Origin: Sphingosinicella sp. YJ22 | GTDB lineage: Bacteria > Pseudomonadota > Alphaproteobacteria > Sphingomonadales > Sphingomonadaceae | DNA length: 45,327 bases | Direction: 5' to 3' | NCBI RefSeq assembly: GCF_011320075.1 | Contig: NZ_JAANPA010000025.1 | Coordinates: forward strand, 1 to 45,327 | Shown here: positions 12,197-34,064 of the stretch, piece after piece | Numbering within the stretch: position 1 is the first letter of the stretch | Layout: each line of letters starts with the position of its first letter | The notes under the pieces: model-generated | Seen by the model: the letters and a program-made list of their open reading frames with translations, nothing else | What the model was told of the DNA's origin: nothing | Databases searched by the model: none | Made by a program: the position numbers and the translations under genes

Positions 12197-12221
12197 AATG
12201 CTGTCGGCGTGGCGCGGTTCC
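12197..12221 (-). promoter_or_regulatory. Candidate EcfG promoter for the entericidin gene
   Basis: On the minus strand, GGAAC (12221-12217), a 16-base spacer and CATT (12200-12197) match the GSR sigma consensus GGAAC-N16/17-CGTT at 8 of 9 positions. The gene starts 50 bases further on. Confidence 0.55.
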
Positions 12222-12282
12222 ACCCGTTCGGCGGAGTCGCGTCAAGGCGTGGCTAATACGGGGGAAAGCCCTGGCTCTTCAG

Positions 12283-12386
12283 AAAAGTTGAGCCCGGAGG
12301 CGCTACCGGGGGGGGGGGGAGGTTAGCGCGTCCGGGCTCATGGTTCTGGATAGCGAGAGCGGGGGGGCAAAAGGTCACTATCCGGA
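12283..12386 (-). ncRNA. Predicted EcfG-dependent small RNA with two C-rich loops
   Basis: No reading frame explains this intergenic segment. On the minus strand a perfect GGAAC-N16-CGTT promoter predicts a start near 12386. The first ~38 nt fold as a hairpin (GGATAG at 12348-12353 pairs with CTATCC at 12378-12383) whose loop contains C7. The next part is a 16-bp arm pair with one mismatch (12290-12305 with 12324-12339) enclosing a U-C12 loop, followed by AACTTTT, a weak intrinsic terminator ending at 12283. C-rich loops are the seed of several alphaproteobacterial sRNAs (Caulobacter GsrN, cuckoo-type RNAs) that pair with G-rich ribosome binding sites. The promoter and folds are seen; expression and function are inferred. 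Confidence 0.6.
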
Positions 12387-12392
12387 CTGCTC

Positions 12393-12417
12393 AACGGCCT
12401 TGGCGGGGCGGGGTTCC
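12393..12417 (-). promoter_or_regulatory. Perfect EcfG-type promoter driving the predicted sRNA
   Basis: On the minus strand, GGAAC (12417-12413), exactly 16 bases, then CGTT (12396-12393). This equals the consensus for the alphaproteobacterial general stress sigma factor, whose gene lies 3.5 kb away. Confidence 0.75.
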
Positions 12418-12524
12418 AGCCCGCGCGATTTTTTTTCTGCGATTTTATCGGGAAGCGGAGCGGACAGGCCGGGAGGCAACCGAGTCGGGCCTGACCGGTT
12501 GGAGCGGATGAAAGGAACCCATCC

Positions 12525-12710
12525 ATGCCCAAGCCGCCGAGCTCGCCGCCCCATTCGGACATAGACGGAGTCAACCGCGACGGGACTCGGCCGAGCAAGA
12601 AGCTCAGCGGGCGCGGCGACAGCACCGCGGCGCTCGAGCGCGCGGACCGCGAGGACGTGGCCCGCCCGGACTATAGCGACGACCGCTCCGACGACGACCG
12701 CACGCGCTAG
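12525..12710 (+). CDS. Small hydrophilic protein, 61 aa, unknown
   Basis: The product is charged and probably disordered: a Pro/Ser-rich start (MPKPPSSPPHSDIDG), a middle with KKLSGRGDSTAALERADRED, and a tail of alternating Asp/Arg (YSDDRSDDDRTR). No domain is recognised. AAAGGAAC precedes the ATG by about 7 bases. It lies between the predicted sRNA promoter and phyP, convergent with phyP. Its position inside the GSR island makes a stress role possible, but nothing in the sequence shows it. Confidence 0.5.
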   Translation: MPKPPSSPPHSDIDGVNRDGTRPSKKLSGRGDSTAALERADREDVARPDYSDDRSDDDRTR

Positions 12711-14718: not shown

Positions 14719-14847
14719 ACAGGTTCTGCAGGCGTATCGGGCGGGGGCCATAGGGGCTGTCACAAACCTGTCCGAGCGCCGTTACACTTGCCAAGCGGGG
14801 GTCGCCCTCATAGGCGCACGCTTTAAATGATTGAGGAGTCGAAACGA

Positions 14848-15648
14848 ATGTCGCTCGGCCAGGAAATTGCGCCTCATCTTCCTTTCCTACGCCGCTACGC
14901 GCGCGCGCTCACGGGCACGCAGAAGCATGGCGACGCCTTTGTCCGCGCGACCCTGGAAGCGATCGTCGCGGCGCCGGACTCCTTCCCGCGCGACGTCGAC
15001 CCGAGGGTCGGACTCTACCGCACCTTCCACGCCATCTGGTCCTCCGCCAACATCGAGGAGGATCCGGGCTATTCGGGCGCCGAGGGCGACGGCGCCGAGA
15101 GCATCGCCCAGGCCCGCCTGTCGCGGATCACGCCGCTGTCGCGCCAGGCCCTGCTGCTGACCGCGATGGAAGGCTTCACGCCGGAGGATGCCGGCTATCT
15201 GATCGGCGCCGCGCCCGAGGAAGTGGAATCGCTGGTCGCCGAGGCGCTCGAGGAGATCGAGCGGCAGACCCGCGCCGAGGTGCTGATCATCGAGGACGAG
15301 CCGATCATCGCGATGGACATCGAGACGATCGTCCGCGACCTCGGCCACAGCGTCGTCGGAGTCGCGGTGACCCGCGACGAGGCGGTCAGCCTGGCGCTCG
15401 CCAAGCGCCCGGGACTGGTGCTCGCCGACATCCAGCTCGCCGACGACAGCTCGGGCATCGACGCGGTCAAGGACATCCTCGCCGAATTCGAGGTGCCGGT
15501 GATCTTCATCACCGCCTTCCCCGAGCGGCTGCTCACCGGCGAGCGGCCCGAGCCGACCTTCCTGATCACCAAGCCGTTCCAGCGCTCGACGGTGAAGGCG
15601 GCGATCGCCCAGGCCCTGTTCTTCGATCCGGCGACGCTTCCGGCTTAA
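14848..15648 (+). CDS. phyR: General stress response anti-anti-sigma regulator PhyR
   Basis: This 266-aa protein fuses an N-terminal EcfG-like (sigma2/sigma4 mimic) domain (about 1-140) to a C-terminal receiver (144-262). The receiver has the acidic pair E149/D150, phospho-acceptor D194 (LADIQLAD), T222 (FITAF) and K242 (TKPF). When phosphorylated, the sigma-like domain sequesters NepR and frees EcfG. I chose the ATG at 14848, which follows GAGGAG by 9 bases and matches known PhyR N-termini (MSLGQEIAPHLPFLRRYARAL); another ATG lies seven codons upstream. It is divergent from nepR-phyP. Confidence 0.97.
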   Translation: MSLGQEIAPHLPFLRRYARALTGTQKHGDAFVRATLEAIVAAPDSFPRDVDPRVGLYRTFHAIWSSANIEEDPGYSGAEGDGAESIAQARLSRITPLSRQALLLTAMEGFTPEDAGYLIGAAPEEVESLVAEALEEIERQTRAEVLIIEDEPIIAMDIETIVRDLGHSVVGVAVTRDEAVSLALAKRPGLVLADIQLADDSSGIDAVKDILAEFEVPVIFITAFPERLLTGERPEPTFLITKPFQRSTVKAAIAQALFFDPATLPA

Positions 15649-15745: not shown

Positions 15746-15883
15746 ATGAATCAAGGCCCGGACCATCTCGGGAAAACCGAAGCGCGCGCCGGCACCACGC
15801 CGCACGTGGCGCGCTACGTCCTTTTCTTCGGACTGACGTTGACCATCCTGGCCTTCGTCATCATCTATCTGATCTGGATGTAG
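15746..15883 (+). CDS. 45-aa single-pass membrane protein in the GSR locus
   Basis: The product has a polar N-terminus (MNQGPDHLGKTEARAGTTPHVARY) and one membrane helix (VLFFGLTLTILAFVIIYLIWM, 25-45). The EARAGxTPHVxRYVL pattern resembles short membrane proteins I recall from other sphingomonads; no function is assigned to them. The gene lies between phyR and ecfG on the same strand. The purine-rich GAGCGAGGG region lies 10-20 bases upstream, a weak ribosome binding site. Position suggests a GSR-linked membrane role, which is inference. Confidence 0.65.
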   Translation: MNQGPDHLGKTEARAGTTPHVARYVLFFGLTLTILAFVIIYLIWM

Positions 15884-15962: not shown

Positions 15963-16643
15963 ATGTCGGGCGTGAAGCCGGCGCAAGAAGACGCGACGAT
16001 CGAGCGTGAAGAGCTCGTGCCGCTGCCGGACGACGAGTTCAAGCAGCAGCTCGGCCAGGTCATTCCGCACCTGCGCGCGTTCGGCCGGTCGCTGTCGGGA
16101 AGCCGCGATCTCGCGGACGACCTCGTCCAGGAGACGCTGCTCAAGGCATGGGCGGCGCGCAAGCGCTTCCAGGCGGGCACCAACATGCGCGCGTGGACCT
16201 TCATCATCTTGCGCAACCTGTTCCTCAGCCAGATGCGGCGCGCCCGATTCAAGGGCGAGTGGGACGAATTGACCGCGTCCAAGATCCTCGCCGCGCCGGC
16301 GAGCCAGGACAAGCATATCGAACTCGCCGACATGCAGCGCGCGCTGCTCCACCTGCCACAGCCCCAGCGCGAGGCGCTGATCCTCGTCGGCGCCGGCGGT
16401 TTCGCCTACGAGGAAGCGGCCGAGATCTGCGGCTGCGCGGTCGGCACGATCAAGAGCCGCGTCGCGCGCGGCCGAGTCGCGCTCGAGGCCCTGCTCAGCG
16501 AAGGCAAGCTGCCGTCGCGCCGCGAGCACGACAATCACGACAAGACCGCGCTCCAGGCGATCATGAGCGAAGTCGACGATCTGAGCCGCGACCGCCTCCC
16601 CACGCCCGACGAGGGCGAGGACGAGGAAGAGACGAAGGCCTGA
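15963..16643 (+). CDS. ecfG: General stress response ECF sigma factor EcfG
   Basis: This 226-aa ECF sigma factor has region 2 ([20 protein letters not shown] to FLSQMRR, 37-93) that recognises -10 elements and region 4 (LPQPQREALILVGAGGFAYE to RVALEAL, 131-177) with the HTH for the GGAAC -35 box. The acidic/His tail after 180 is longer than minimal ECFs and unusual. A start at 15942 is possible (MYIGGSS), but the ATG at 15963 follows a GGGGG tract by 7 bases and is preferred. It is held by NepR until PhyR is phosphorylated. The candidate sites near 12.2, 12.4, 14.7 and 29.0 kb match its expected recognition sequence. Confidence 0.93.
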   Translation: MSGVKPAQEDATIEREELVPLPDDEFKQQLGQVIPHLRAFGRSLSGSRDLADDLVQETLLKAWAARKRFQAGTNMRAWTFIILRNLFLSQMRRARFKGEWDELTASKILAAPASQDKHIELADMQRALLHLPQPQREALILVGAGGFAYEEAAEICGCAVGTIKSRVARGRVALEALLSEGKLPSRREHDNHDKTALQAIMSEVDDLSRDRLPTPDEGEDEEETKA

Positions 16644-16985: not shown

Positions 16986-19721
16986 ATGACGGATTCAGAA
17001 CCACGTTGCGTTGAAGAGACACTTGGTTGCGACCAAGATGACATCGAACGCGTGGGTCCGGCGGTTGAACGTGGGCGAACGCACTCCCCCTTCCTGCGGT
17101 TCCATCTCGAGTCGAAAAATCCTGTCGCGACCGCGGTTTGCGCCGGCCGGCTGGGCGAGGCGCTGGCGCTGGCGCGGGCGCAGGGGGAGGACGGCGACGT
17201 CATGGCGGCGCTGCGCCGCGAGCGGACCGGGCACGCCCTGGCGCTGGCGATCGGCGACCTTGCCGGGCTGCTCACCCTGGAGCAGGTGACGGCGACGCTG
17301 TCGCAGCTTGCCGACAGGGTGCTGGAGCGGGCGGTCGCGGCCGCCATCGCCGAACGCTGTCCCGGCGCGCCGGTGCGCGGCTTCGCGGTGATCGCTCTCG
17401 GCAAGCTCGGCAGCGGCGAGCTCAACTACTCGTCGGACGTCGACCTCTTGTTCCTGTTCGACCCGGCGACGCTGCCGCGGCGCGAGCGCGAGGATTCCGG
17501 CCAGGCTGCGGTGCGGATCGGCCAGCGCGTCGTCGAGCTGCTGCAGAAGCGCACCGAGGACGGCTACGCCTTCCGGGTCGACCTGCGCCTGCGCCCGTCG
17601 CCGGAAGTGACTCCGATCGCCCTGCCGGTCGACGCCGCGATCAGCCATTACGAATCCTCGGCGCTGCCGTGGGAGCGCTCGGCCTTCATCCGCGCGCGCC
17701 ATGCCGCGGGCGACGCCGCGCTCGGCCGTTATTTCCTCGACGCGATCCACCCGTTCGTGTGGCGGCGAAGCCTCGATTTCGGCGCGGTCGGCGAGATCCA
17801 GGCGGTGACGGGACAGATCCGCGACCATTATTCCGCGGGCCAGAAATTCGGCCCTGGCTTCGACCTCAAGCGCGGGCGCGGCGGAATCCGCGAGGTCGAG
17901 TTCTACACCCAGGCACTTCAGCTCATCCATGGCGGCCGCGAGCCGCAGCTGCGCGCGCCCGCAACGATGGACGCGCTCGCCGCGCTGGGCGCGGCGGGGC
18001 GGATCGGCGCCGACGAGGCGGCCGCGCTCAGCGACGCCTATCGCCTCCTGCGCACGATCGAGCATCGCGTGCAGATGGTCGACGACAAGCAGACCCATCA
18101 GCTGCCGCCGACTCCGGAAGGGCTCGACAATGTCGCGCAGCTTCACGGCCTGGCGGACGGCGCCGCTTTGCTCGACCTCTTGCGCCCGCATGTCGAGTCT
18201 GTGGCGGACCATTATGGCGCGCTCGCGCCGCAATCGCAGACCCGGCTGCCGGGCTCGGCCGCGCTCGAGGAGCGGCTCGCCGGCCTCCACTTTCCCGACC
18301 CCCCGGCGGCGGCGGCGCGGATCGAGGGCTGGCGCAGCGGCAAGGCCCGGGCGCTGCGCACCGCCGCCGCGCGCGACCCGTTCGAGGCGATGCTGCCGGG
18401 GCTCGTCGAGGCATTCGGCCAGTCGTCCGACCCGATGGCGGCCTTGAACCGCTTCGACAATCTCGTCGAGCGGCTGCCGAGCGGAGTCAATTTCTTCCGC
18501 CTGCTCGAGGCGCGGCCGGCGGTGGTCGACTATCTCGCCAATATCCTCAGCCACGCGCCGACGCTGGCCGACCAGCTCGGGCGGCGGTCGGAGCTGCTCG
18601 ACGGCCTGATCGACGCCAGCGCCTTCGCTCCGCCGCCGGACGTCGCCACGCTTGCCGACGACTTCGCCCGGCGCGAACGGCGCGGCGAGGATTACCAGAT
18701 GCTGCTCGACCGCGTGCGCGCCCGGGTCAACGGCGTGCGCTTCGCGCTCGGCGCCCAGATCGTCCTCGCCCGGTCCGACCCGCTCGACGCCGCGCGCGGC
18801 TATGCCCGGGTCGCCGAGGCGGCGATCGACGTGCTTGCCCGCGCCGCCATCGCCGAGTTCGAGCGCCAGCACGGCAAGGTGCCCGGCTCCGAGCTGCTCA
18901 TCCTCGGCCTGGGCCGGCTCGGCGGCGGCGAGCTCACCCATGCCTCCGACCTCGATCTGATCTACCTGTTCAGCGGCACCCACGAAGCGCAGTCGGACGG
19001 CTCCAAGCCGCTGCGCGCGACCGATTATTTCAACCGCCTCGCGCCGCGCGTCTCGGCCGCGCTGAGCGTGCCGACCGCGGCGGGGCCGCTCTACGACGTC
19101 GACCTGCGTCTGCGCCCGTCCGGCCGCGACGGACTCCTCGCCGTCTCGCTGCCGAGCTTCGCGGACTATCAGGCCAGCCACGCCTGGACCTTCGAACATA
19201 TGGCGCTGACCCGAGCGCGCCCCGTGTTCGGCTCGCCCGAGGCGCGTGCGGCGCTGGGCGCGACGGTCGCGGAGATCCTTCAGAGCGAGCGCGATCCCGG
19301 CAAGGTCGCGGCCGACGCCCGGACGATGCGGCGCGAGATCGCGCGCCACAAGCCGGCCAAGGGGCCGTTCGACATCAAGCTGGGCGAGGGCGGGCTCGTC
19401 GACCTCGAATTTCTCGTCCAGTCGCTTCAGCTCATCCATCGCACCGGGCTCGACCCGCGCATGGACGTCGCGCTCACGGCGCTCGCCGAGGCGGGCCTCG
19501 TCCTGCCCGACCTCGTCGAGGATTATCGCCTGCTCACCCGCATGCTGGTCACGTTCCGGCTCGTCTCGCCGCAATCGGCAGAGCCGCCGCCGCCCTCGCG
19601 CGCGTTGGTCGCCCAGGCGTGTGGCCTCGCCGATTGGGACGCTTTGCTTGAAGCGCACGACGAGGCGCGCCAGAGGGTATCGCAATCATGGGCCGCTTTC
19701 GCGGCGCAAGCAGAGGAATGA
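16986..19721 (+). CDS. glnE: Bifunctional [glutamine synthetase] adenylyltransferase/adenylyl-removing enzyme
   Basis: This ~911-aa protein carries two nucleotidyltransferase domains joined by a helical PII-binding linker. The N-terminal deadenylylase has GKLGSGELNYSSDVDLL (Asp pair D151/D153) and the C-terminal adenylylase has GRLGGGELTHASDLDLI (D655/D657). It adds or removes AMP on glutamine synthetase according to nitrogen status signalled by PII. The ATG at 16986 is chosen because the family match begins soon after it; 16959 is possible. The stop nearly abuts the bcp start. Glutaminase (glsA) elsewhere in the window acts on the same metabolite. Confidence 0.95.
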   Translation: MTDSEPRCVEETLGCDQDDIERVGPAVERGRTHSPFLRFHLESKNPVATAVCAGRLGEALALARAQGEDGDVMAALRRERTGHALALAIGDLAGLLTLEQVTATLSQLADRVLERAVAAAIAERCPGAPVRGFAVIALGKLGSGELNYSSDVDLLFLFDPATLPRREREDSGQAAVRIGQRVVELLQKRTEDGYAFRVDLRLRPSPEVTPIALPVDAAISHYESSALPWERSAFIRARHAAGDAALGRYFLDAIHPFVWRRSLDFGAVGEIQAVTGQIRDHYSAGQKFGPGFDLKRGRGGIREVEFYTQALQLIHGGREPQLRAPATMDALAALGAAGRIGADEAAALSDAYRLLRTIEHRVQMVDDKQTHQLPPTPEGLDNVAQLHGLADGAALLDLLRPHVESVADHYGALAPQSQTRLPGSAALEERLAGLHFPDPPAAAARIEGWRSGKARALRTAAARDPFEAMLPGLVEAFGQSSDPMAALNRFDNLVERLPSGVNFFRLLEARPAVVDYLANILSHAPTLADQLGRRSELLDGLIDASAFAPPPDVATLADDFARRERRGEDYQMLLDRVRARVNGVRFALGAQIVLARSDPLDAARGYARVAEAAIDVLARAAIAEFERQHGKVPGSELLILGLGRLGGGELTHASDLDLIYLFSGTHEAQSDGSKPLRATDYFNRLAPRVSAALSVPTAAGPLYDVDLRLRPSGRDGLLAVSLPSFADYQASHAWTFEHMALTRARPVFGSPEARAALGATVAEILQSERDPGKVAADARTMRREIARHKPAKGPFDIKLGEGGLVDLEFLVQSLQLIHRTGLDPRMDVALTALAEAGLVLPDLVEDYRLLTRMLVTFRLVSPQSAEPPPPSRALVAQACGLADWDALLEAHDEARQRVSQSWAAFAAQAEE

Positions 19722-20214: not shown

Positions 20215-20253
20215 TAAAGCGCGTCGACGGGGCCGGGCGGGGGAACGCCAGCG

Positions 20254-20769
20254 ATGAATGCTCGTTTTCGCACCATCATGAAGCTGGGCAATTCCAATCT
20301 GCTCCCGGTGATGGGCGTGCTGACCGTGGTCTCGGGCGCGGTCGGGCTCCAGCTCGGCGAGAGCGCCATCGCGCAGATCGACCCGATCCATTTCCAGGGC
20401 CCGGCGCCGACTCCGCGCGACGTGTCGCAGGACCCGCTGCCGCCGGTCGGGCCGACTTATGCCAGCGCCTATGGCTGGGCGCAGAGCGAGGCGGCGCTGG
20501 CCGCCGAATGCGGCGATTGCGGCACGCCCGCGGCGCGCACCGCGGTCGCGGCGAACTGGGAGCCGGTCCATGGCGCCGCGCCCGAACCGCGCTACGTGCC
20601 GGTCTCGGTCCCCCGCTACGAGCCGCGCGAGGTGAAGGTCGAGCGCGAGGTCGCCGAGTGGCGCGACGTCACCCGCTACACCAGCTACCGGGTCGTCGAG
20701 GACGAGCCCGAGTTCGAGCGCGTGGTCATCGAGACCGAGCCGGCCGGCGAGGATCTGGCGGGGCTCTAA
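20254..20769 (+). CDS. Uncharacterised membrane-anchored or secreted protein, 171 aa
   Basis: A basic N-terminus and a weakly hydrophobic segment (LLPVMGVLTVVSGAVGLQLG, 16-35) suggest a signal anchor, or a signal peptide ending near AIAQ. The rest is Pro-rich with a Cys pair (CGDCG, 86-90), then a charged, Val/Arg/Glu-rich region (YVPVSVPRYEPREVKVEREV, 113-132) of probable beta strands. I recognise no domain. Codon use is like its neighbours. A family 1 repeat lies 9 bases after the stop. Confidence 0.7.
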   Translation: MNARFRTIMKLGNSNLLPVMGVLTVVSGAVGLQLGESAIAQIDPIHFQGPAPTPRDVSQDPLPPVGPTYASAYGWAQSEAALAAECGDCGTPAARTAVAANWEPVHGAAPEPRYVPVSVPRYEPREVKVEREVAEWRDVTRYTSYRVVEDEPEFERVVIETEPAGEDLAGL

Positions 20770-21795: not shown

Positions 21796-22920
21796 ATGCA
21801 GGTATCGGTTCAGCGTAAGAACGGCGGGTGGGGCAGCAAGTTCCGGGGCGCGTTCAAATCTCGCGATATTTTTCTCCACGATGGCAGGAGCTTGCGTCGC
21901 TTCACCGTCGGCCGCCGGGCCCAGGCCGCGGCCACCGGCGCGGTTCTCGGCCTGCTCGCCTGGTCCGGCTATGCTACCGTCCAATATGCCAGCGCGATGA
22001 CCAGCGACGTTGCCACGATGCAGCGCCAGGTCGCCGACATGCAACAGGACGTCGAGGCTCTTCGCACCGCCGCCGCCGAGCGCGCCGAAGTTGTCGAGCA
22101 GCGCCAGGCTTTCCTATCGGCGATGCTGTCCGGTCAGGCCGATCCCGCCGACGTCGCCCGTCTCCTTCCCGCCGCCGTCGACGGCGACATCGAAGATCCC
22201 CGCATCGCCGCCGAGTTCGAGCAGATCGAAGGCATGCAGCTGTCGCTCGCTGCCCAGGCCGACGCCGCCACCCGCGCGCGCTACCGCCAGACCGCGGCGG
22301 CCGTCCGCCGCCTCGGCATCGATCCGCGCCGTCTCGCCCAGGGTGGCGTCGGCGGTCCGTTTGAGGAAGCCGCCGGCGGCGCGACCCCGGCCAATGCCGA
22401 CGTCGATCCGCGCTTCGCCCAGCTTTTCGCCAGCTGGCGCCAGATGGAGCAGCTCGAGCAGGGCGTCGCCTCGATCCCGTCGATGATGCCGGTTCAGGGC
22501 GCGCGCTGGACCAGCAGCTTCGGAGTCCGTTCCGATCCGTTCCGCGGCCGCGCCGCGATGCATGGCGGGATCGACATGGCCGGTCCGATCGGTACGCCGA
22601 TCTATGCCACCGCCGACGGCACCGTCGCCACCGCCGCCTGGAACAGCGGCGGCTACGGCAACCTCGTCGAGCTCGGCCACGGCGCCGGCATCGCCACCCG
22701 CTACGGCCACCTGTCGCGCATCATGGTCCGCGACGGTGAGCGAGTCCGTCGCGGCCAGGTCATCGGCCTGATGGGCTCGACCGGCCGTTCGACCGGCAGC
22801 CACCTTCACTACGAGGTCCGCATCGACGGCCGCGCGGTCAACCCGCTGCCCTTCCTGCAGTCCGGCCAGGCCCTCGCCGCCCTCCAGAGCAGCTCCGGCG
22901 GCCGCGGCGGCAGCCGCTAA
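21796..22920 (+). CDS. M23 family peptidoglycan metallopeptidase (membrane-anchored)
   Basis: This 374-aa protein has a short basic cytoplasmic N-terminus, one membrane helix (about 38-58), a coiled-coil-prone stretch (TMQRQVADMQQDVEALRTAA, about 73-92) and a C-terminal LytM/M23 domain. Zinc ligands are H256 and D260 (MHGGIDM) and H338 (SHLHYEV). By family it should cut peptide cross-links in peptidoglycan, or act as a regulator of other hydrolases. GAGG lies 6 bases before the chosen ATG; an earlier ATG is two codons upstream. A strong terminator follows. Confidence 0.93.
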   Translation: MQVSVQRKNGGWGSKFRGAFKSRDIFLHDGRSLRRFTVGRRAQAAATGAVLGLLAWSGYATVQYASAMTSDVATMQRQVADMQQDVEALRTAAAERAEVVEQRQAFLSAMLSGQADPADVARLLPAAVDGDIEDPRIAAEFEQIEGMQLSLAAQADAATRARYRQTAAAVRRLGIDPRRLAQGGVGGPFEEAAGGATPANADVDPRFAQLFASWRQMEQLEQGVASIPSMMPVQGARWTSSFGVRSDPFRGRAAMHGGIDMAGPIGTPIYATADGTVATAAWNSGGYGNLVELGHGAGIATRYGHLSRIMVRDGERVRRGQVIGLMGSTGRSTGSHLHYEVRIDGRAVNPLPFLQSGQALAALQSSSGGRGGSR

Positions 22921-32294: not shown

Positions 32295-34064
32295 ATGCAG
32301 GCGGCGAAGAAACGCGTGAGCGACGAGCCCCCGGCCAGCCTCGCGGCTGTGCCGGAGGTCGCCGACCCGCTTGCGCCTGACGTCGCCCGCGTGCTCGGCC
32401 ATGCCCGCCAGGTCTATCTCGACGCCCTGCCGATCCCCGCCGCGGTCGTCACCATCGATCCCGCCGGTCCCTATATCGAAAGCGCCAACGACGCCTTTCG
32501 CAACGTCGCGGAGTTCGACGAACGGCTCGGCGATCGCCGAGTCTCCAAGGTGCGCCTGCTCAGCACCGGCCCGATCGGCCGCCGCCTCGCCGAATATCTC
32601 GAGAGCGGCGAGCCCGCCCACCAGTTCGAGAGCAGCGACGGCCGCTCGATCGGCGGCCGCCATTTCCTGATTCGCTTCGCCCGCGTGCGTCCCCTCGAAT
32701 ATGGCCCGGTCCGCTTCGTGATCTCGCTGATCGACCGCACCGCCCAGGTCGAGACCGAGCGCAGCCTGCGATCCGAGATGCTGCTCGACAGCCTCACCGG
32801 GCTGCCCAACCGCCTCGCCTTCACCGAGCAGGTCGACCGGGTCCTGTCCGATCCCTCGCTCGCCGACGGCAGCTATGCGGTGCTCGCGGTCGACATGGAG
32901 CGGTTCAGCCGGGTCAACGAATGCGTCGGCGCCATCGCCGGCGACGAGCTTCTGATCGCCTTCGCCCGCCGCCTCGTCTCGGCGCTGCGCCCGACCGACA
33001 TGCTCGCCCGCACCTCGGGCGACGAGTTCGGAATCCTGATGAAGCTCGACCGCGGCCTCGCCGACGCGCTTCGCGCCGCGGAGCGGATCAAGGCCGTGCT
33101 CACCCTGCCGTTCCGGCTCACCGACCTCGAGATCCGAATCGACTGCGCGATCGGCTGCGCGCTGGTCGGACGCGGCGTGAGCAGCGCCGACGAGCTGCTG
33201 CGCAACGCTCAGTTCGCCTTGAAGCGTTCCAAGCGAGTCGGCGCCGCCCAGGTCTACGAGCCGGTCCAGGCCCAGGCGGTGCGCCGCCGCTTCAGCATGG
33301 AAACCGAATTGAGGCGCGCCATCGAGGCCGAGGCGCTCGAGCTCGCCTTCCAGCCGCTCATCGACCTCCAGACCGGCAAGGTGTCCTCGTTCGAGGCTCT
33401 GGCGCGCTGGCGCCAGGACCCGATCGGCCCGATCTCGCCGGCCGAGTTCATCCCCGTCGCAGAGGAATCGGGCTTGATCGTGCCGCTCGGCCGCTGGGCG
33501 CTCGAATCGGCGCTGCGCACCCTGGCGGACTGGGACCGGGCCAATGGCAGCCCGCTGCCGTTCGGAATGAGCGTCAACCTCTCGCCGATCCAGATCGGCC
33601 GCGACAACATCGCCCAGGTCGTGTTCGCGGCGCTCGCCGGCAGCGGCATCAGCGGCAACCGGCTGACGCTCGAGCTCACCGAGAGCGCCATCGTCCAGGA
33701 TCCCGACCGCGCGAGCAGCGTGCTCACCGGCCTCAAGAAGCTCGACGTCAAGGTCGCGATGGACGATTTCGGCACCGGCTTCACCTCGATCGGCTCGCTC
33801 CAGCGCCTGCCGATCGACGTGCTGAAGATCGACCGCAGCTTCGTCGGCAACATGTGCGAGGACGAGGACGCCACCTCGATCGTCCGCGCCATCCTGTCGC
33901 TGGCCTCCTCGCTCGGCATCGAGACCACCGCCGAGGGCATCGAGCGCGCCGAGCTTGGCGATGCGCTTGCGGAGATGGGCTGCACCTACGGCCAAGGCTA
34001 TCATTACGCCCGGCCGATGCCGGCCGACGAGGCGCTGGCTTACTGGCGCGAGACCAACGGCTAG
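32295..34064 (+). CDS. PAS-GGDEF-EAL cyclic-di-GMP protein
   Basis: This 589-aa protein has an N-terminal PAS-like domain (about 38-148), a GGDEF domain (about 160-322) with signature SGDEF (241-245) and an EAL domain (about 335-585) with FEALARW (366-372), LTLELTES and DDFGTG, all metal-binding positions being intact. The phosphodiesterase is probably active. The first Gly of GGDEF is Ser, which many active cyclases tolerate, but the cyclase may instead be regulatory. No membrane segment is seen. Its stop overlaps that of the convergent DUF1963 gene. Confidence 0.93.
   Translation: MQAAKKRVSDEPPASLAAVPEVADPLAPDVARVLGHARQVYLDALPIPAAVVTIDPAGPYIESANDAFRNVAEFDERLGDRRVSKVRLLSTGPIGRRLAEYLESGEPAHQFESSDGRSIGGRHFLIRFARVRPLEYGPVRFVISLIDRTAQVETERSLRSEMLLDSLTGLPNRLAFTEQVDRVLSDPSLADGSYAVLAVDMERFSRVNECVGAIAGDELLIAFARRLVSALRPTDMLARTSGDEFGILMKLDRGLADALRAAERIKAVLTLPFRLTDLEIRIDCAIGCALVGRGVSSADELLRNAQFALKRSKRVGAAQVYEPVQAQAVRRRFSMETELRRAIEAEALELAFQPLIDLQTGKVSSFEALARWRQDPIGPISPAEFIPVAEESGLIVPLGRWALESALRTLADWDRANGSPLPFGMSVNLSPIQIGRDNIAQVVFAALAGSGISGNRLTLELTESAIVQDPDRASSVLTGLKKLDVKVAMDDFGTGFTSIGSLQRLPIDVLKIDRSFVGNMCEDEDATSIVRAILSLASSLGIETTAEGIERAELGDALAEMGCTYGQGYHYARPMPADEALAYWRETNG

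Follow-up and report, generated by a model that had tools for sequence, protein, structure and literature searches.

A conserved, putatively EcfG-controlled small RNA gene with two C-rich loops in sphingomonads

We have identified a small RNA (sRNA) gene with an EcfG-type promoter, and sequence comparison confirms that it is conserved across much of one family, the sphingomonads. In the window, which is the whole 45,327-nucleotide stretch of Sphingosinicella sp. YJ22 DNA that was analyzed, the gene lies at positions 12417-12283 of the minus strand, beside genes of the general stress response (GSR). Its promoter, fold, strand and conservation are supported by the comparison of genomes, and from these we infer its transcription, its EcfG dependence, its base pairing and the sign of its regulation. 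Taken as a whole, our reading is that of a trans-acting sRNA that would be made by EcfG-RNA polymerase and would pair with G-rich sites through its C-loops, and we give it a probability of about 0.78. The RNA is described in no paper that we found in the open-licence PMC literature.

Promoter, fold and C-rich loops

Read along the minus strand, the locus consists of GGAAC-N16-CGTT and, after 9 nt, of two hairpins that carry C7 (hairpin 1) and C12 (hairpin 2), followed by AACTTTT. A perfect EcfG promoter had been claimed at 12417-12393, and it is present there as described, with the -35 element GGAAC at 12417-12413, a 16-nt spacer and the -10 element CGTT at 12396-12393. The pattern GGAAC-N15-18-CGTT has six matches in the window vs. 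1.01 expected; other such sites are found at 17078-17103 (minus), 20242-20266 (plus), 21820-21844 (minus) and 33204-33230 (minus). The predicted sRNA is about 104 nt long (12386-12283, minus), its start being placed from the promoter and its end from the T-tract. Just past the promoter, on the opposite strand, is a small ORF of 61 aa without a family match (12525-12710, plus).

The promoter was compared across 177 distinct loci that had been chosen mostly by the hairpin 1 pattern and otherwise by BLAST or covariance model, none of them by promoter; two loci, one without the hairpin 1 pattern (L052) and one truncated (L084), were excluded. GGAAC stands at the expected site in 176 of the 177 and CGTT in 134. 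The spacer measures 16 nt in 140 loci and 17 nt in 37, and shows low sequence conservation except at its first base. With duplicates included, GGAAC and NGTT occur together in 185/190 loci and the -10 box is 9 nt ahead of hairpin 1 in 179/190, while a shuffled upstream control had both elements at allowed positions in 1 of 3800 cases.

The fold predicted for 12386-12281 has a free energy of -45.8 kcal/mol (z = -8.05), which none of 200 shuffles equaled. Hairpin 1 (12383-12348, minus) has the C7 loop of the original prediction, but its stem had been given too short, as the 6 bp GGATAG/CTATCC; we found 9 bp, GGAUAGUGA/UCGCUAUCC, including one U-G. The loop reads CCUUUUG-C7-GCUC and contains a 2-bp inner helix. 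Its C7 (12367-12361, minus), the presumed seed, is of near-fixed length in relatives. Hairpin 2 (12340-12289, minus) was found as predicted, with conserved pairs, C12 (12319-12308, minus) in its loop and AACTTTT after it. The first C of the C7 is predicted to pair in the inner helix and the other six to be exposed (unpaired probability at least 0.9); with the C12, likewise predicted unpaired, they form the two exposed C-loops that had been proposed. Lengths of the C-runs were counted in 26 BLAST-selected sequences only, because counts from loci chosen by the hairpin 1 pattern would be circular. Loop 1 has C7 in 24 of these, C6 in one and C8 in one, and its CUUUUG is invariant. The run of loop 2 ranges from 5 to 13 Cs between species, in line with the earlier suggestion that the C12 run may vary in length. 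It is preceded by ACCU in 23 of the 26 sequences, and the CC of the ACCU ahead of the C12 is predicted to pair with GG.

The terminator-like tail AACTTTT (12289-12283, minus) is weak, with four Ts. The T-tract varies, at least five Ts occurring in the next 14 nt at 93 of the 142 loci (out of 155) in which the end of hairpin 2 was recognized. A terminator scan that permits loops of 3-8 only gave no flag at the locus. The prediction that about 100 nt would be devoid of a reading frame holds for conserved proteins and fails for short frames, since an AUG at the base of hairpin 2 opens 12 codons here. This AUG is invariant in 26/26 sequences, as it might be if the locus were a small protein gene beginning there. 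We rejected that explanation as extremely unlikely: the frame ranges from 11 codons to the script's cut of 50, it shifts between species through the length of the C-run and one indel, and peptide conservation stops after the first part of hairpin 2.

Covariation and distribution among genomes

Stem pairing was examined in 59 distinct sequences aligned to the covariance model, a procedure that favors that model's pairing. Standard pairs fill 97.3% of the pair cells in this alignment. Double-sided change is seen in 24 of 29 pairs, including 7/9 stem pairs in hairpin 1 and 17/18 pairs in hairpin 2, vs. 6-10 pairs in controls with slid partners. Cells with double-sided change number 149 vs. 29.5 in shuffles, and 0/500 shuffles reached as high a count. 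A MAFFT alignment of 26 sequences gave double changes in 6/29 pairs. When the pairs are read on the minus strand, 78 cells are G-U and 13 are A-C, an excess indicating that this is the RNA strand. Genomes of groups g2, g37, g42 and g66 have a stem 1 of different sequence and retain the C-loops and promoter; tatC is still nearby in the inspected g37, g42 and g66 genomes with the altered stem. Loss of the promoter and stems in related genomes had been named as the result that would speak against the original prediction, and we found both kept.

A DNA search located the sRNA in 25 of 26 genomes of the genus, own genome included. The sole exception, G003, is 87% complete and also lacks a covariance model match. 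One further clear DNA match came from a different genus of the same family (G035). A first covariance model was built from these 26 sequences and a second from 61. The first matched 73 of 296 genomes of the order at E ≤ 0.01, all in one family. With the second, the search of the two-hairpin model in Sphingomonadales that had been proposed as a check showed the stems to be conserved, with matches in 89/296 genomes at E 0.001 that again fall in one family and span 20 of 79 genera. Twelve low-to-middling matches were inspected, of which eight have an EcfG-type promoter. The four without one (L517, L518, L519 and L523) are the main matches of G256, G260 and G315 and the second match of G316; discounting three genomes leaves about 86 in 18 genera. 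Many genomes of the same family had no second-model match in this search of 296 genomes. One genome, G030, carries a paralogue with two C-loops and GGAAC-N16-TGTT at a second site.

Outside the family, the best E value was 0.0044 for the first model, run on 240 genomes of the class, and 0.018 for the second, run on 230, and none of the matches was convincing. We treated class matches at or above these values as chance. Eleven such loci were taken, two of which could not be located, and the nine that were read at the position of the match all lack the combination of promoter and two C-loops. Under laxer filters, 18 of 39 genomes had a match at E ≤ 1. Two of them, G070 and G114, were accepted; G028 has a model match (E 4.8e-6) at the tatC place without an EcfG-type promoter, and the remainder were taken as chance. 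A survey of 30 tatC flanks from the laxer-filter genomes, which would miss any family member moved away from tatC, found the promoter and two C-runs in the same two genomes. The flank of G027 was set aside, as it has a GGAAC-CATT site but one C-run and a weak fold. The sRNA occurs in records named Sphingomonas, Sphingobium, Sphingosinicella, Sphingomicrobium, Stakelama, Hephaestia, Rhizorhapis and Parasphingopyxis. Among the matches listed (at least 120 stretches), all records named to genus are sphingomonads, and some are MAGs named at higher rank only.

Neighboring genes and the comparison with Sphingomonas melonis Fr1

The gene order in the window is ecn, sRNA, kinase, phyR, ecfG and glnE, with tatC and scpA beyond ecn. 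The upstream neighbor encodes an HWE/HisKA_2 histidine kinase (14323-12737, minus) for which the best NCBIfam model is PhyK, far under its cut-off. It is followed by phyR (14827-15648, plus) and ecfG (15963-16643, plus; start picked by spacing from a G5 tract). Between these two lies an ORF of 45 aa (15746-15883, plus) with a hydrophobic stretch, a Pfam DUF2788 match at E 0.0059 only, and an EcfG-type promoter ahead of it (from 15674, plus). A regex for a NepR-like motif had no match in the window. Downstream of the sRNA, ecn (12147-12022, minus) encodes an entericidin-family lipoprotein of 41 aa (Pfam Entericidin, E 1.6e-8) and has an EcfG-type promoter, GGAAC-N16-CATT, at 12221-12197 (minus).

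In 35 stretches (L064-L098), tatC was found in 29, ecn in 26, and the kinase and phyR/ecfG in 20. The proximity to the GSR locus that had been noted in the window is therefore shared by 20 of 35 stretches. Two of the 15 stretches without GSR genes end early on that side; the other 13 keep the sRNA despite at least 4 kb upstream. On the other side, 121 of 155 loci, a set that includes nine duplicates, have ecn downstream of the sRNA in the same orientation. This arrangement, and the weak terminator tail, would suit a cis-acting leader of ecn, such as a thermometer, riboswitch or attenuator, in place of a free sRNA. Between the RNA and ecn, however, a separate GGAAC-N15-18-NRTT site is present in 109 of the 121 loci, vs. 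1/121 when the complementary strand of that stretch is searched. Moreover, 34 of the 155 loci have no recognized ecn, 29 of them with at least 800 nt downstream. We therefore regard a cis-acting leader as decidedly unlikely. Being kept both without ecn (29 loci) and without phyR/ecfG (13 stretches), the sRNA appears to be a gene of its own.

Data published for S. melonis Fr1 also bear on this question. In the part of that study available to us, gene #1442 is listed as EcfG-dependent with a log2 ratio of -4.7 (PMC6599016); its promoter and the GGAAC-N16-CATT promoter of ecn in the window are of one type. Two genomes that share Fr1 promoter letters contain the sRNA (model E about 1e-20). In one of these genomes, the ecn promoter immediately below the sRNA matches that of #1442 exactly, which again argues against a cis-acting leader, and in the other it differs by one change. 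In these relatives, then, the gene next downstream of the sRNA is one whose EcfG dependence in Fr1 has been published, and we infer that the sRNA is present in S. melonis Fr1 itself. A text search of the Fr1 EcfG RNA-seq paper (PMC6599016), as far as its text was available, gave no mention of an sRNA, and the examined parts of the sphingomonad EcfG regulon papers (PMC6599016, PMC7083833) contain none either.

Gene #2180, beside pakA (#2181), has the lowest log2 ratio among the Table 1 rows listed, -6.3 (PMC6599016). It was considered as an ecn candidate behind the sRNA because its promoter lies 270 nt 5' of its start. The candidate was rejected, since in two genomes the same promoter (one mismatch) leads to another region, with a 54-aa ORF that has no model match; in both of these genomes the sRNA is found at a different place, ahead of ecn. 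From position 1501 of L342 and L344, the #2180 promoter is followed by about 250 nt and then by the 54-aa ORF, which lacks an NCBIfam match. The stretch after this promoter may be a further stress RNA, or else a long leader.

Known C-loop RNAs, candidate targets and proposed function

A scan of the locus against 4227 Rfam families, among which we take 6C to be counted, gave no family at gathering score. With all families and E up to 5, cmscan of 12200-12480 returned only Scr3202 and mir-1304; the 6C model had no match there. The best match, Scr3202 of Streptomyces (RF02833), extends over the whole length and has the same two-hairpin C-loop layout, but its 20.2 bits fall short of the gathering score of 52 (E 0.87), so that it amounts to resemblance, not membership. 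The definition of 6C RNA is a pair of hairpins, each with about six consecutive Cs in its loop, and the sRNA has this layout of two hairpins with a C-run in each loop. It resembles the actinobacterial 6C/B11 in this respect and differs in belonging to another phylum and in its EcfG-type promoter. Either of the two C-loops of B11 represses a gene whose leader carries a G-tract, according to the part of the report consulted (PMC10470900). Within the sphingomonads, SuhB of Sphingopyxis granuli TFA is likewise described as a trans-acting sRNA, of 61 nt, regulated by growth rate and lowering thnR translation with Hfq (PMC6563040, in part); it was compared by description only.

Caulobacter GsrN, to which the original prediction had likened the RNA, is transcribed by the same kind of sigma factor and acts on a G-rich target through a C-rich loop, as far as we consulted its description (PMC5869019). 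GsrN was compared by this description. The sRNA shares with it the EcfG/SigT-type promoter, proximity to GSR genes, which are near in most GsrN relatives, and an exposed C-rich 5' loop; traits of the GsrN family also include an effect of Hfq on processing and katG activation. The sRNA differs in having two C-loops, where one C-rich 5' loop is described for GsrN, and in our searches its convincing members are in one family only. A counterpart of GsrN is thus upheld in promoter, place and C-loop and not in model matches, as both models, run on 240 and 230 class genomes, found none convincing outside the family. Descent is a separate matter, and a diverged orthologue of GsrN that has drifted beyond recognition would be compatible with our preferred reading. 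The promoter kind, the GSR neighborhood in 20 of 35 stretches and the C-rich 5' loop favor such an orthologue, as do GsrN-associated sites, e.g. UCGGGGGGCG, complementary to CGCCCCCCGA, which is similar to GCCCCCCCGC of the sRNA. Evidence against it, besides the second C-loop and the model searches, comes from BLASTn matches of gsrN, which, as given in the part of Tien et al. (PMC5869019) consulted, are confined to Caulobacteraceae, with no apparent gsrN-like gene in Erythrobacter litoralis. We consider common descent possible but doubtful.

Three genes with G5 tracts before their starts (ecfG, glsA and the adenylate cyclase) had been proposed as targets, a proposal that did not stand. GGGGG-N4-10-ATG occurs seven times in the window vs. 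11.3 expected by chance, and ecfG was rejected as a conserved target, given that at least five consecutive Gs are present in the last 24 nt upstream of it in 10 of 77 distinct regions. By comparison with a reversed pattern, a control that leaves ordinary Shine-Dalgarno bias in the excess, CG6 shortly before ATG has 36 matches vs. 9 in the own genome, and 29 to 58 vs. 3 to 15 in six relatives at slightly narrower spacing. This excess, about 2- to 14-fold in the own genome and G005, G007, G009, G018, G019 and G020, suggests that the genus may favor G-rich ribosome-binding sites in general. For candidate targets we inspected the 36 own matches, 30 loci over the six relatives and 129 more stretches from four relatives; G018 was covered among the matches listed, and G019 and G020 were sampled thinly. 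At least 112 candidate ORFs (at least 70 aa; seven genomes, two thinly sampled) yielded only three two-genome clusters, one of which has unlike N-termini and one of which is a lipoprotein cluster. The best candidate, a secreted protein family with matches in 20/26 genus genomes, was rejected as a conserved target, since the G-run is not kept: among the 27 of 29 matches that were read, a run of at least four Gs occurs in 22 and of at least six in four, own included, and the longest run has 8 Gs in the own genome and from 1 to 7 in the other homologues.

Absence of a conserved target among the CG6 candidates, together with the conservation of loop 1 beyond its Cs (the invariant CUUUUG), would be consistent with an RNA that binds protein, as a sponge for a C-binding regulator or Hfq, and does not base-pair. 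The precedents of GsrN and 6C/B11, so far as their reports were consulted, favor pairing by analogy, and we think a sponge unlikely. Since GsrN and B11 act via C-loops, pairing with G-rich ribosome-binding sites would be the likeliest action.

Upon stress, PhyR frees EcfG. In the mechanism that we propose, the freed EcfG would direct transcription of the gene at 12417-12283 (minus), giving an RNA of about 104 nt that would end past hairpin 2 and in which both C-rich loops would remain single-stranded. These loops would base-pair with G-rich sequences, chiefly at ribosome-binding sites, and pairing would alter how several mRNAs are translated and how stable they are. Loop 1, with its nearly fixed C6-8, would be the main seed, and loop 2, with its variable C-run, a second and more tolerant one. 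More speculatively, and with considerable doubt, the sRNA may represent a new RNA class. Sphingomonads would then have evolved a 6C-like regulator with two seeds independently, to serve as the translational arm of the EcfG response. The near-fixed C7 of loop 1 would be a seed, and loop 2 an anti-Shine-Dalgarno mimic (ACCUCC...) whose drifting C-run sets strength and breadth, possibly by slippage. Since the CC of ACCU is paired in the predicted fold, such a mimic would need that short pair to be opened.

RNA-seq has already been applied to the stress response of sphingomonads, and the sRNA adjoins GSR genes in many genomes. If real, it would offer a candidate for post-transcriptional control of this response that can be deleted, and a case in which to ask if regulatory RNAs with C-loops have several origins (GsrN, 6C/B11 and the sphingomonad sRNA). 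Most likely, the sRNA is a post-transcriptional arm of the sphingomonad general stress response, and it probably tunes protein synthesis under stress.
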